Source of the DNA: Chloroflexi bacterium bin20
GTDB lineage: Bacteria; Chloroflexota; Anaerolineae; Aggregatilineales; Phototrophicaceae
Assembly (NCBI GenBank): GCA_002238485.1
Contig: MPMG01000002.1
Coordinates: 178,689 to 242,688 of the forward strand
Direction: 5' to 3'
DNA: 64,000 nt
Shown here: positions 35,337-39,605 of the stretch, piece after piece
Position numbering within the stretch: position 1 is the stretch's first letter
Layout of the letters: each line of letters opens with the position of its first letter
Program-made: the position numbers and the translations under genes
The notes under the pieces: model-generated
Databases searched by the model: none
What the model was told of the DNA's origin: nothing
Seen by the model: the letters and a program-made list of their open reading frames with translations, nothing else

Positions 35337-36638
35337 ATGCCCAAAATCACTTTTATCGGCGCTGGCAGCTTCGGCTTCACGCGCAAACTCGTCAAAGATA
35401 TCCTCACCTTTCCCCTGCTGGAAGGCGCAGACATCTCGCTGATGGACATCGATGCCGAGCGACTGGATTTCGCCCAGCGCGCTGTGGAGCGCATCGTGAC
35501 GGCTGGCGGCTATCCCGCGACTGTCAGCGCCACGCTCGACCGCGAAGAAGCCCTGCGCGACGCCGATTATGTGGTCGTGACCATCCTGGTCGGCTCCACC
35601 GATGTCTGGCGGCACGATATCGAGATTCCCATGAAATATGGCGTGGACATGAATGTCGGCGACACGCGCGGCGTCAGCGGCATCTTCCGTTCGCTGCGCA
35701 CCATCCCCGTCATGGTGGATATCGCCCGCGATATGCAGCGGCTCTGCCCCAATGCGCTGATGCTGAATTACACCAACCCCATGGCCATGCTCTGCCGCGC
35801 GCTGGATATCGAAAGCGACATCCGCGTGACCGGGCTCTGCCACAGCGTGCAGGGCACATCCAAGATGCTGGCGAAGTGGATCGGCGCGCCCTACGAAGAG
35901 ATCAACTACACCTGCGCCGGCATCAATCACACTGCCTGGTTCATCGACTACACCTGGAATGGCGAAGACGCCTATCCACACATCAAGCGCGCCATAAGCG
36001 ACAATGCCGAAATCTACAATGCCGAGCAGGTGCGCAACGAAATGTACCTGGCGCTGGATTATTATGTGACCGAGTCCAGCGGGCACAACAGCGAATACAA
36101 TTGGTGGTTTCGCAAGCGCCCTGACCTGATTGAGAAATACGCCACGCACGGCACGAACTGGAATCCCGGGCATCATGCCTACATCCTGAAAGAATATCGC
36201 CGGCGCGAGCACGACTGGCGCGATGATATCCATGCCTGGTTCGCCGAAGACGAGATCGACCTGGCGCGCGGGCACGAATACGCAGCTTATATCATCAATG
36301 CCATGGAAGGTGGCGAGCCTTTCAAGTTCAATGGCAATGTGCCCAACCGCGGTTTGGTCGACAACCTGCCCGCCGAAGCCTGCGTCGAAGTGCCGGTCTG
36401 GGTGTCTCGCGATGGGCTGGAGCCGGTGGCGGTGGGCGCGCTGCCCACTTCGGTCGCGCCATTGACCAATCTGTATGCGCAGATTGAAGAGATGGCTGTG
36501 GCGGGAATCTTGCAGGGCGACAAACGGCTGATCTACCAGGCTGTTGCCTATTCGCCCTTGTCGGCGGCCGTCTGCTCGCTGAAAGAGATACAGTCGATGG
36601 TGGATGAGCTCTTCGCGGTGAACGAAGCGTATCTGTAG
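35337..36638 (+). CDS. Glycoside hydrolase family 4 (alpha-glucosidase/alpha-galacturonidase type)
   Basis: 433 residues, ATG 35337 preceded by TTGGAGG. GH4 enzymes use NAD+ and a divalent metal. The NAD motif GAGSFGFT, metal-binding Cys in GLCHSVQG, His in GINHTAWF, and the EYNWWF block are visible, and NYTNPMAM is standard. Cytoplasmic enzyme hydrolysing imported alpha-linked glycosides or glycuronides. The C-terminal 25 codons occur a second time at 37186. No transporter is adjacent. TACAAT at 35299 may be its -10. Confidence 0.92.
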
Positions 36639-36654
36639 CAGACCTTGGCATATC

Positions 36655-37185
36655 ATGACATCAAATCAAACGGGGGTGCGAACCCGCTGGCGGCAAGCCA
36701 AACCGACCACACGCTTGTTTTGGCGGGCGATAACCTATGGCATCGCTTCTGCCACAGTTGCCGGCGCTGTCATTGGCTTTGTTTGGGATGTTGAAGTACA
36801 AGGCTACTCTGGTAACGGCCACATGGTTGCCGGATTGGCTTTCATTGGCTTGATATATGGCCTCATCGCAGCGCCTATCTTCGCATTTGTTATGAAGGCG
36901 CTTGCCAAATTCCTGTATTATTCACCCGGCGATTTCGTGACAGGCAGTTCAGCGCTATTCAGGTTGATTATGGGGGGACTCACCTTGATAGGCGTCGGGG
37001 TGACAGCGCCCTATTTCGCCGTCTATATTGCTTTAACAGATTTATTGAGCGGCGCATCAACAATCCCGCTCTATTCGAGCACGATACTCCTGTTGTGGGC
37101 TTTCGGTGTATTTTTGAGTCAAGTCTTGGCACAACAATATATTGTCGAAGTTGCGCCGAGAAAGCACAAGAAAAAACTAGCTTGA
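36655..37185 (+). CDS. Unknown four-helix membrane protein lying between two copies of the GH4 gene end
   Basis: 176 residues with a basic N-terminus (RTRWRQAKPTTRLFWR), four hydrophobic segments and a basic tail (RKHKKK), suggesting both ends are cytoplasmic. Starts 16 bases after the GH4 stop without an evident ribosome site. It is followed immediately by a degenerate copy of the GH4 3' end. No family recognised. Base composition is somewhat lower in G+C than GH4. Confidence 0.6.
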   Translation: MTSNQTGVRTRWRQAKPTTRLFWRAITYGIASATVAGAVIGFVWDVEVQGYSGNGHMVAGLAFIGLIYGLIAAPIFAFVMKALAKFLYYSPGDFVTGSSALFRLIMGGLTLIGVGVTAPYFAVYIALTDLLSGASTIPLYSSTILLLWAFGVFLSQVLAQQYIVEVAPRKHKKKLA

Positions 37186-37242
37186 GCGGCTGCCTGCTCG
37201 TTGAAAGAGATACAGTCGATGGTGGCTGAGGCGTATCTGTAA
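37186..37242 (+). repeat. Partial duplicate of the GH4 gene 3' end
   Basis: Reads [18 protein letters not shown] and stop, against [19 protein letters not shown] with NEAYL and stop at 36564-36638. Nucleotide identity is high apart from a gap of about 18 bases. It begins directly at the stop of the membrane-protein gene and is in frame with nothing upstream. Confidence 0.85.
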
Positions 37243-37384
37243 GGGGAGTGGTGAAATCGGTGATCTACGAAGCTAGCGCAATCTTGTGAAACAATCTCGG
37301 TGAACTCCTTCAACTCGGTGTACTCGGTGGTAAAACCTTTGCAGCGTTCACAATAGTCGTATATCCATAATTCACCACTCCCCT
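37242..37384. repeat. 143-bp MITE-like element with 14-bp inverted ends
   Basis: AGGGGAGTGGTGAA (37242-37255) is exactly complementary to TTCACCACTCCCCT (37371-37384). Inside is a CTCGGTG variant of the CTCTGTG run (AACTCGGTGTACTCGGTGG). No coding frame. A second element with nearly the same ends lies at 55404-55539. Confidence 0.75.
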
Positions 37385-37496
37385 GTAAGCGCATTATGGC
37401 GCGACCGATGTGAGTTGCGCTAGAATAGATTAAAGCAAAGGTAAATGAGTATGCGCGGTCGGATAACATATACGGAGAGTTGGAGGGGGACAAGCT

Positions 37497-37997
37497 ATGT
37501 CGCGCAAGAAAGCACTGATGAGAATGGTCGCGCGAATGTGCGCCTACTGCACCGCGCTGACAGCCTTGAGCTTTTTTGTATTCTGCGCTGTGCTAAGCCC
37601 GCTGCTGTTTCCAGGCGACACCTTTGTCCCAATCTCTATCATGTTGGTCGATTTTGCTTTCGAGAGCGTCGTAACCGGATTGGCATTGGGACTGCCGATG
37701 GCGCTGCTAACCGCGGTCTGCTTTCGTGAGATACGCCGTCCGACCTTTTATCGCTTCACGATGCTGACATCCTCGCTGGTTATCGTCATTCTGTTTTTGT
37801 CAGAGGGCGCTTTCTCTTTCTCGTTCGCCCCACTGACCTGGTTTGCGCTCTTCTTGGAATACGATTTGCGGATTGCGGCGCTGCTGCTGGTCGTCGTGTC
37901 CAAGTTTGGCTTGGCTGCCTATATGAGCCATGTTGCCGCTGGCAAGTACCTGCGCGATTTGCAGGCGCAGCAGCCAATAGCGACTGATGCGCAGTGA
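37497..37997 (+). CDS. Unknown four-helix membrane protein, paralogue 1
   Basis: 166 residues, ribosome site GGAGGGGGA upstream. N-terminal basic stretch (MSRKKALMRMVARM), then four hydrophobic helices and a C-terminal YLRDLQAQ. It resembles the next gene: KALMRMVARM-C...ALTALSF versus KPLLKMVLRI-C...ALSALSF, and AAGKYLRDL versus SADRYLREV. No known domain. Tandem duplication of a small membrane protein. Confidence 0.7.
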   Translation: MSRKKALMRMVARMCAYCTALTALSFFVFCAVLSPLLFPGDTFVPISIMLVDFAFESVVTGLALGLPMALLTAVCFREIRRPTFYRFTMLTSSLVIVILFLSEGAFSFSFAPLTWFALFLEYDLRIAALLLVVVSKFGLAAYMSHVAAGKYLRDLQAQQPIATDAQ

Positions 37998-38041: not shown

Positions 38042-38515
38042 ATGTTTCGCGCGAAACCGCTGCTGAAAATGGTACTGCGTATCCTCGCCTGCAGTATAGC
38101 GCTTTCGGCATTGAGCTTCGTCTGGGCGCAGTTGCATTTCTTTGGCGGCATCCAACTCACTTCGGCAGATGAATTGGTCGAAATCACATTGATGATCGCG
38201 TACTCCGGCGGCATGGCGGGGCTGATCCTGGCGATCCCGATGGCCTTCTTGGCAGCATTGTTCGTCGCCCCGGGACGGCGCAGCCTGGCAGTTGATCGCT
38301 TTAGCCTGATTGCTGTGTGCCTCATTGTCTACTTGCTGGTTTATGGGGAAGACTTGCGCAGCGCCTTGAGCGCTTGGCAAGATTTTCCGGTCGCGGTCGC
38401 GGTGACGATCGGACATTTTATACTGCTGGGAGGCGCGGCAACTTTCTCAGCCGACCGCTACCTGCGCGAAGTCGCCCTTGTCCTGGACAGTCGCAAGCCG
38501 AAAGAACTTCCATAG
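38042..38515 (+). CDS. Unknown four-helix membrane protein, paralogue 2
   Basis: 157 residues, 44 bases after paralogue 1; AAAGG-like site upstream. Four hydrophobic segments, with a conserved acidic pair after helix 1 (TSADELVEIT) and a middle loop APGRRSLAVDRFS that parallels REIRRPTFYRFT in paralogue 1. Function unknown. Confidence 0.7.
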   Translation: MFRAKPLLKMVLRILACSIALSALSFVWAQLHFFGGIQLTSADELVEITLMIAYSGGMAGLILAIPMAFLAALFVAPGRRSLAVDRFSLIAVCLIVYLLVYGEDLRSALSAWQDFPVAVAVTIGHFILLGGAATFSADRYLREVALVLDSRKPKELP

Positions 38516-38576: not shown

Positions 38577-39605
38577 TTACCCCGCCAGACGCGCTTTCGC
38601 TTCTCGCGCCGGCGTGAAATTGGGATTGAAGGTCAGCACCTTGATGTAATTCTGCAGGGCTTTGTCCAACTCGCCGCGTCCCTCGCGCGCCAGGCCCAGA
38701 TAATAATACGTTTCTTCGACATATTGCCCGCCGCCGTCGCTCTGATTTTGGCGGACGATGCGCATCATGTCGTCATAACGCCCGGTGTGATAATAGGCTT
38801 CCAGCGCGCCAAATTGATACCAGAACATGCGCCAGGGCAGCCCCAGCGCGATCGCCCGGTCGTAGGCTTGCGCCGCCGCGTCGAACATCTGCAAGCCCAG
38901 GAAGCTGCTGCCCATGTTGAACCAGGCGTGGGCGTCTTCGTTGTCGGCGATGGCTTCTGCCCGCGCCAGCTCCAGCGCATTGATGGTATTCTGCCATTCG
39001 TCGGCGTTCGCGCCCAGCAAGTCCATCAACTCTTCGTGGCGGTTGACCGTGTAAAGCGCGATGTATGTGTAGTTGAAATGCTGCCAATAGGTCATGATAT
39101 CGGCATAGGCATAGCGCGTGTCGGGTCCGCGAAAGCTGTCCATGGTCGTGAATTCCGCCAGCGCATCGTCATAACCCGCTATCAGCAGATAATGCCCCAT
39201 CCAGTCGTAGCCGCTGGGCTCGTAGCCTTTTTCGATGACCACAGGGAAACCCTTCGCCAGCAACGTCTTCAGCAAGTCCAATGTGCCGCCACTGCGCACG
39301 ATGGCGAAGACAGGCAGCTCGGGGATCTGTGTATTAACGAACTCCGCCATTTGCCAGGGACTGACATTTTTGTCTTCATAATTGGGTTTGAGCCAGTTGG
39401 CGGCGCGGTTTTGGTCATCGGCATAACCAAAATGCGCCAGCGCGTTGGTCAGGGTGGCCGGACCGCAATTGTTCCAGCCTTGGTATTCATTGCCCAGATC
39501 GCCCATACGGTAGACGGGCGGCAGCGACAGGTTGGTTTCGTTGGTCTGCGCGGCGAGGGGCAGCGCCCATAAACAACACAGGAAAACAAGGCAGCAACGA
39601 ATCAT
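38577..39605 (-). CDS. Secreted C39-like cysteine peptidase domain with C-terminal TPRs
   Basis: 342 residues. Signal peptide ends LPLAAQ-TNE. The papain-like C39 fold shows the nucleophile in GWNNCGPATLTNAL and the His in WMGHYLLIAGYDD, with Asp/Asn of the triad likely in TTMDSFRG. From about residue 215 there are TPR-like helices (HAWFNMGSSFLGLQMFDAA, ETYYYLGLAREGRGELDKA). Proteins of this layout are often annotated C39-family peptidases; the target is unknown. No bacteriocin gene is adjacent. Confidence 0.8.
   Translation of the reverse strand: MIRCCLVFLCCLWALPLAAQTNETNLSLPPVYRMGDLGNEYQGWNNCGPATLTNALAHFGYADDQNRAANWLKPNYEDKNVSPWQMAEFVNTQIPELPVFAIVRSGGTLDLLKTLLAKGFPVVIEKGYEPSGYDWMGHYLLIAGYDDALAEFTTMDSFRGPDTRYAYADIMTYWQHFNYTYIALYTVNRHEELMDLLGANADEWQNTINALELARAEAIADNEDAHAWFNMGSSFLGLQMFDAAAQAYDRAIALGLPWRMFWYQFGALEAYYHTGRYDDMMRIVRQNQSDGGGQYVEETYYYLGLAREGRGELDKALQNYIKVLTFNPNFTPAREAKARLAG

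Follow-up and report, generated by a model that had tools for sequence, protein, structure and literature searches.

A glycosidase gene end as a probable slot for repeated gene gain in a genus of Chloroflexota

The GH4 locus and its repeated gene end

Downstream of an intact GH4 glycosidase gene, the window (the whole 64,000-nt stretch of Chloroflexi bacterium bin20 contig MPMG01000002.1 that we analysed) carries small membrane-protein genes, a second copy of the glycosidase's 3' end, a MITE-like element and a peptidase gene. The features, with the basis of each assignment in parentheses, are as follows.

35337–36638, + strand: GH4 glycosidase gene, intact, 433 aa (PF02056, 1.6e-58; PF11975, 3.6e-51)
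36564–36638, + strand: proximal copy of the repeat, which is the functional GH4 3' end, 75 nt (repeat comparison)
36655–37185, + strand: mem1, 176-aa membrane protein, predicted helical bundle, probably the inserted gene (AlphaFold2 model)
37186–37242, + strand: second copy of the GH4 3' end, a relic shortened in frame by 18 nt and ending in TAA (repeat comparison; profile score 28.2 bits)
37238–37242, no strand: left target-site duplication of the MITE, TGTAA, overlapping the relic's stop (sequence)
37243–37383, no strand: MITE-like element, 141 bp, with 13-bp terminal inverted repeats (ends read in the sequence; genome copies)
37384–37388, no strand: right target-site duplication of the MITE, TGTAA (sequence)
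37497–37997, + strand: mem0, 166-aa membrane protein of the type that lies directly behind GH4 in uninterrupted relatives (locus maps)
38042–38515, + strand: mem7, 157-aa membrane protein, a divergent superfamily member (family comparison, locus maps)
38577–39605, − strand: C39-like peptidase with TPRs, the downstream anchor of the variable slot (Pfam; conserved in relatives)

The repeat of the GH4 tail is real. A direct-repeat search matched 36564–36608 with 37186–37230 (45 nt, 91% identity), GCGTATCTGTA(G/A) comes next in both copies, the final codons are the same, and the sole difference in length is one 18-nt in-frame deletion; GH4 stops with TAG and the relic with TAA. An earlier sequence-only reading had held that the last 25 codons of GH4 recur at 37186, behind the stop of a 176-residue ORF and with a deletion of about 18 bases, and the repeat search bears this out: the relic abuts the stop of the membrane ORF at 36655–37185. 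The range of 36564–37242 given there for the membrane gene spans the first copy through the second, and not the membrane gene alone. To gauge chance, we took 267 other genes from 360 kb of this contig and scored the final 90 nt of every one, ungapped, against the 3 kb that follow it. Scores of 14 or less were obtained for 263 of the 267 gene ends and of 15 or more for four, of which two lie beside a similar tandem gene, one marks an insertion of the same kind at glcD and one is a weak 21-nt match. GH4 falls outside the 267-gene list, where an antisense ORF takes its place, and its 45-nt match would score 33 by arithmetic.

The mem1 product is predicted with fair confidence to form four helices (AlphaFold2 pLDDT 80.7, pTM 0.69). 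Foldseek searches of the model against the PDB and viral models gave best E values of 0.3 and 0.37, none significant, and the membrane family has no significant match in Pfam, NCBIfam or PHROGs. The nearest relative of the window's mem1 is mem1 of genome G030 (52%), which lies outside the window's group in the GH4 tree.

In that tree the window genome (G000) is placed with G003 and G007, then with G015 and then with G028; the group of five has support of 100/100, and support is weak (84/26) for the inner fork that joins G000 to G003 and G007. Behind GH4, G028 has mem0 and no relic, G015 has the C39 gene directly and no membrane gene, and in G003 both the membrane genes and the C39 gene are missing; the G007 contig ends early behind GH4. 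The 12-mer AAAGAGATACAG occurs in both GH4-tail copies of the window and in none of the other tails among 45, which suggests that the window copy derives from, or was homogenised with, the lineage's own GH4. The tail alignment likewise places the window relic closest to its own genome's GH4 end, and the relic looks lineage-own and comparatively young.

Gene-end relics across the genus

The named records among the relatives are metagenome assemblies labelled Anaerolineae or Chloroflexi/Chloroflexota, some of which, judging from their bin names, may come from sponge samples. A close GH4 ortholog is present in 30 of 34 genus genomes, and these gave 31 GH4 loci for the survey (G025 contributes two), two of them with less than 310 nt of sequence behind GH4. 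Between GH4 and the C39-peptidase/TPR gene, the number of small membrane genes ranges from 0 to 5 in the 31 loci, all from a single superfamily, and there are fragments as well. Family membrane ORFs occur in 22 of the 31 loci, and profile A1 detects the family in 23 of 34 genus genomes, mostly at the GH4 locus. The mem0 type lies directly behind GH4 in six loci (L054, L059, L062, L072, L073 and L074).

Using a profile of true ends and relics, we found 14 GH4-tail relics behind small membrane genes in 11 of the 31 loci, with up to two relics per locus; the count is partly circular because the profile itself includes relics, and a reversed-sequence control gave one hit of 4.1 bits. A profile built from true ends only recovered a downstream tail at 18.9 bits or more in nine of these 11 loci, the other two being weak at 10–11 bits (L066 and L078, both counted). 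A match in L068 (8.0 bits) and a second partial relic in L067 (10.9 bits) were left out of the count. Eight of the 14 relics are followed by mem0. The left boundaries of most relics lie near the same codons; the G013 relic reaches about 190 nt, the greatest length found with a 315-nt GH4-end model. This G013 relic (L064, about 600–787 nt behind GH4) is fresh on its left side and decayed on its right and is possibly a two-event mosaic.

The relics appear to have lost coding constraint. Mismatch to the consensus at codon positions 1, 2 and 3 is 4.2, 3.5 and 25.3% for 30 true ends, 12.7, 20.8 and 20.1% for the eight best relics, and 21.5, 27.2 and 27.2% for all 14 relics, and since the relics mismatch about equally at the three positions they do not look translated under constraint. 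We rely here on the percentages, given that Fisher tests treat related sequences as independent.

Origin of the relics and competing explanations

In three cases a relic and its downstream flank match the uninterrupted GH4 end of a relative, which suggests that these relics are displaced ends. The relic and flank of G029 are collinear with the uninterrupted GH4–mem0 junction of G027 over 196 nt (85%), and those of G002 over 187 nt (88%); G002's own GH4 end matches the same junction over 32 nt only. G029, G002 and G027 group together in the GH4 tree (support 93/85). The third match is that of the G006 relic and flank with the G010 GH4 end (182 nt, 88%), and since these two genomes do not group in the GH4 tree, sequence exchange at the relic, as opposed to plain displacement, may lie behind it. 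At the window itself the argument for a displaced native end is indirect, because the flank of the relic, with or without the MITE, has no significant match to any uninterrupted locus; by eye only, it resembles the GH4–mem0 spacer of G028.

Taken together, we consider it probable that the GH4 3' end serves as a slot for repeated, additive recombinational insertion of membrane genes of this superfamily, in which GH4 is kept whole and its old end is left as a scar. The repeat in the window is then most likely the scar of a gene gain and not a spare gene. Incoming DNA would bring along, or be linked up with, about 75 nt of GH4 end, and this short arm would recombine with the resident GH4 end, giving a complete GH4 end with the new gene behind it and the old end beyond the new gene as a non-coding relic. 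Ordinary recombination, homologous or illegitimate, could provide the route; a single crossover might, for instance, integrate a fragment that had been circularised or that had homology on one side. Ku-dependent end joining was considered as a route and rejected, as Ku (PF02735) was detected in none of the 34 genus genomes and the Bacillus subtilis control was positive. The relics may then offer short homologous stretches at which genes are again gained, lost and exchanged. If one founding junction had spread through homologous recombination, the common start of the relics would be accounted for, and the longer relic of G013 would need another event.

The outline of this proposal agrees with the suggestion of the sequence-only reading that a segment integrated into the gene end and restored it: uninterrupted GH4 ends do exist in relatives, and some relics with their flanks match them. 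Several details of the history are blurred. The own genome's GH4 is the nearest end for only two of the 14 relics, and an end brought by a donor appears indistinguishable from a copy of the own end in most genomes. Gain is not always separable from later loss, and the uninterrupted state of G027 could be a deletion between repeats. An order in which the newest relic lies nearest GH4 is contradicted in G030 and G013, where the better-preserved relic is the one farther from GH4. The window relic and the second relic of G030 have the 18-nt deletion in common; common descent and slippage between 5-bp repeats 18 nt apart account for it equally well, and it is given no weight here.

The strongest competitor, which we still regard as unlikely, is tandem duplication of a unit of GH4 tail plus membrane gene, with the membrane genes then diverging and the relics surviving as a unit boundary kept alike by gene conversion. 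It would account for the C-terminal motif that all the membrane genes have in common as members of a single superfamily, and for most relics starting near the same codons, as one founding junction would give. Tandem arrays of the family do occur: G033, the most distant genus member by GH4, has one away from GH4 (L115, contig C52). However, the membrane genes that flank a relic are mutual best hits in none of the 12 comparable cases among the 14 relics, a pattern left by additive insertion and not by recent tandem duplication, and in G006 no membrane gene lies behind the relic at all. In the window the two tails are 91% identical over 45 nt, yet BLAST gives no alignment between mem1 and mem0.

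Still less likely, in our view, is that the GH4 3' end is a shared docking site in this genus for a family of single-gene membrane cassettes, each with a GH4 tail as its arm for recombination, which travel from species to species and form an array like that of an integron but lacking an integrase. A dedicated site-specific system, also integron-like, with the GH4 end as attachment site and a recombinase acting in trans, is improbable. The left boundaries of many relics do cluster near one place and the single genes behave like cassettes, but G013 departs from that boundary (about 190 nt), the relic repeats are mismatched with no invariant core in the alignment, and the window proteins put through a Pfam scan included no recombinase family. 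The attachment-site version of the earlier suggestion, for which a fixed core or a recombinase was to be sought, lacks support.

The other possibility put forward, that the membrane gene overwrote a decaying GH4 duplicate, is very improbable. Its precedent lies outside the genus: of 80 loci, 54 are out-of-genus (several with less than 1 kb behind GH4), and among these a tail recurs above 9 bits only in L150, L151 and L162, out-of-genus Chloroflexota in which it does so because a complete GH4 paralog, 42–43% identical, lies directly behind GH4. Within the genus, no second GH4, complete or long partial, occupies the site in the 31 mapped loci, so that the observation named by the sequence-only reading as counting against integration did not turn up; the longest relic found with the 315-nt end model is about 190 nt, and the window relic is closest to its own GH4 end, whereas the out-of-genus paralogs are only 42–43% identical as proteins. 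In two other loci, L142 and L143, a GH4 that is 76–78% identical occurs in records labelled Trueperaceae, reflecting either transfer or mislabelled bins.

That the MITE created the arrangement, as its position against the relic might suggest, is virtually precluded and is refuted for the repeat itself, because its own 5-bp target duplication lies inside the relic. With the stop codon of the relic contained in the left TGTAA, the element inserted there after the relic had formed. The adjacency of the MITE to the duplicate's stop had been recognised correctly, with a start at 37242 that moves to 37243, one base past the stop; five further near full-length copies (75–95% identity) lie elsewhere in the genome.

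Similar insertions and known systems

Additive insertion of the kind proposed for GH4 has counterparts on the same contig. Direct repeats 300–6000 nt apart were sought in 360 kb of contig C4 of the window genome, and besides GH4 two of the 10 repeat pairs found are clean insertions. The first is a sulfatase-domain membrane gene (PF00884) between glcD and glcE (C4:34444-36216; L200:14444-16216), flanked by a 37-nt repeat of 97% identity; glcD and glcE are adjacent in 29 of 29 relatives examined, none of which has a sulfatase-domain gene there. The second is a 1.2-kb segment before a solute-binding-protein gene (C4:255802-257222; L208:15802-17222), flanked by a 115-nt repeat of 97% identity that covers the leader and first codons of that gene. 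The segment has no match in the regions upstream of the solute-binding-protein gene at 19 relatives' loci, and the sequence that precedes it can be aligned collinearly, though with gaps, to G007 as far as that gene. That the repeats measure 37, about 75 and 115 nt would argue against one transposase. Three loci within 360 kb of one genome thus display similar events. A run of about 17 G lies inside the sulfatase-domain gene between glcD and glcE, and the paralog region L273 has one as well; these are possible phase-variable tracts.

Nobusato, Uchiyama, Ohashi and Kobayashi reportedly described, in 2000 (Gene 259:99), insertion with long target duplication for restriction-modification genes of Helicobacter pylori. 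In the parts of two reports on which we draw (PMC4978471, PMC2749054), that species is described as having genes with long target duplications on both sides. The likeness to GH4 is a gene between two direct copies of a host target; the cargo here is a membrane-protein family in place of restriction-modification genes, and one gene end serves repeatedly throughout the genus. At GH4 and at the two further loci direct target repeats flank the insert. Relatives have a single target copy without the insert at GH4 (G015 lacks the membrane gene and G028 the relic) and at glcD–glcE (adjacent in 29 of 29). Within the systems compared here, and going by those parts of the reports, the H. pylori insertions are the closest natural case.

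An experimental parallel comes from Escherichia coli, where a trimmed, ligated circle integrates by a single crossover and leaves a partial duplication of the homologous locus; the part of the report used here gives a duplication PCR product for 56 of 60 Lac- clones and duplications of 109–950 bp in 14 sequenced clones (PMC3240628). The product has the same layout as the GH4 locus, but that is a laboratory conjugation system, and the duplications are shorter here and the route is inferred. In orphan rhs-CT/rhsI modules, displaced end fragments lie downstream of the full-length gene and can recombine with it, much as gene-end fragments lie behind GH4, although the displaced end there, as far as the source excerpt goes, codes for a toxin domain and comes with an immunity gene, whereas the relic here is non-coding (PMC3967940). 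No Rhs/CDI-type toxin domain with an immunity gene was found at the slot, where the membrane proteins were searched against Pfam, NCBIfam and PHROGs and the relics are non-coding.

Integron gene cassettes are single genes gained at one slot. The GH4 slot resembles them in single-gene gain, with no integrase or attC-like site identified near it. Transposed genes in Arabidopsis are often bracketed by direct repeats of at least 30 bp that are often single at the target in a sister species, and the authors draw circle excision followed by homologous integration (PMC2869330). The moved genes are thus bracketed by direct repeats in both cases; that one is a plant genome, for which the excerpt drawn on describes scattered targets and no reused gene end.

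We found no description of a reused GH4 slot in the open-licence literature. The slot offers a natural record of single-gene addition without breaking the adjoining gene, in which relics of the host gene mark the gains, and it draws attention to a rapidly changing family of small membrane proteins in Chloroflexota. The kind of event is known; what is unusual is the repeated reuse of one gene end.
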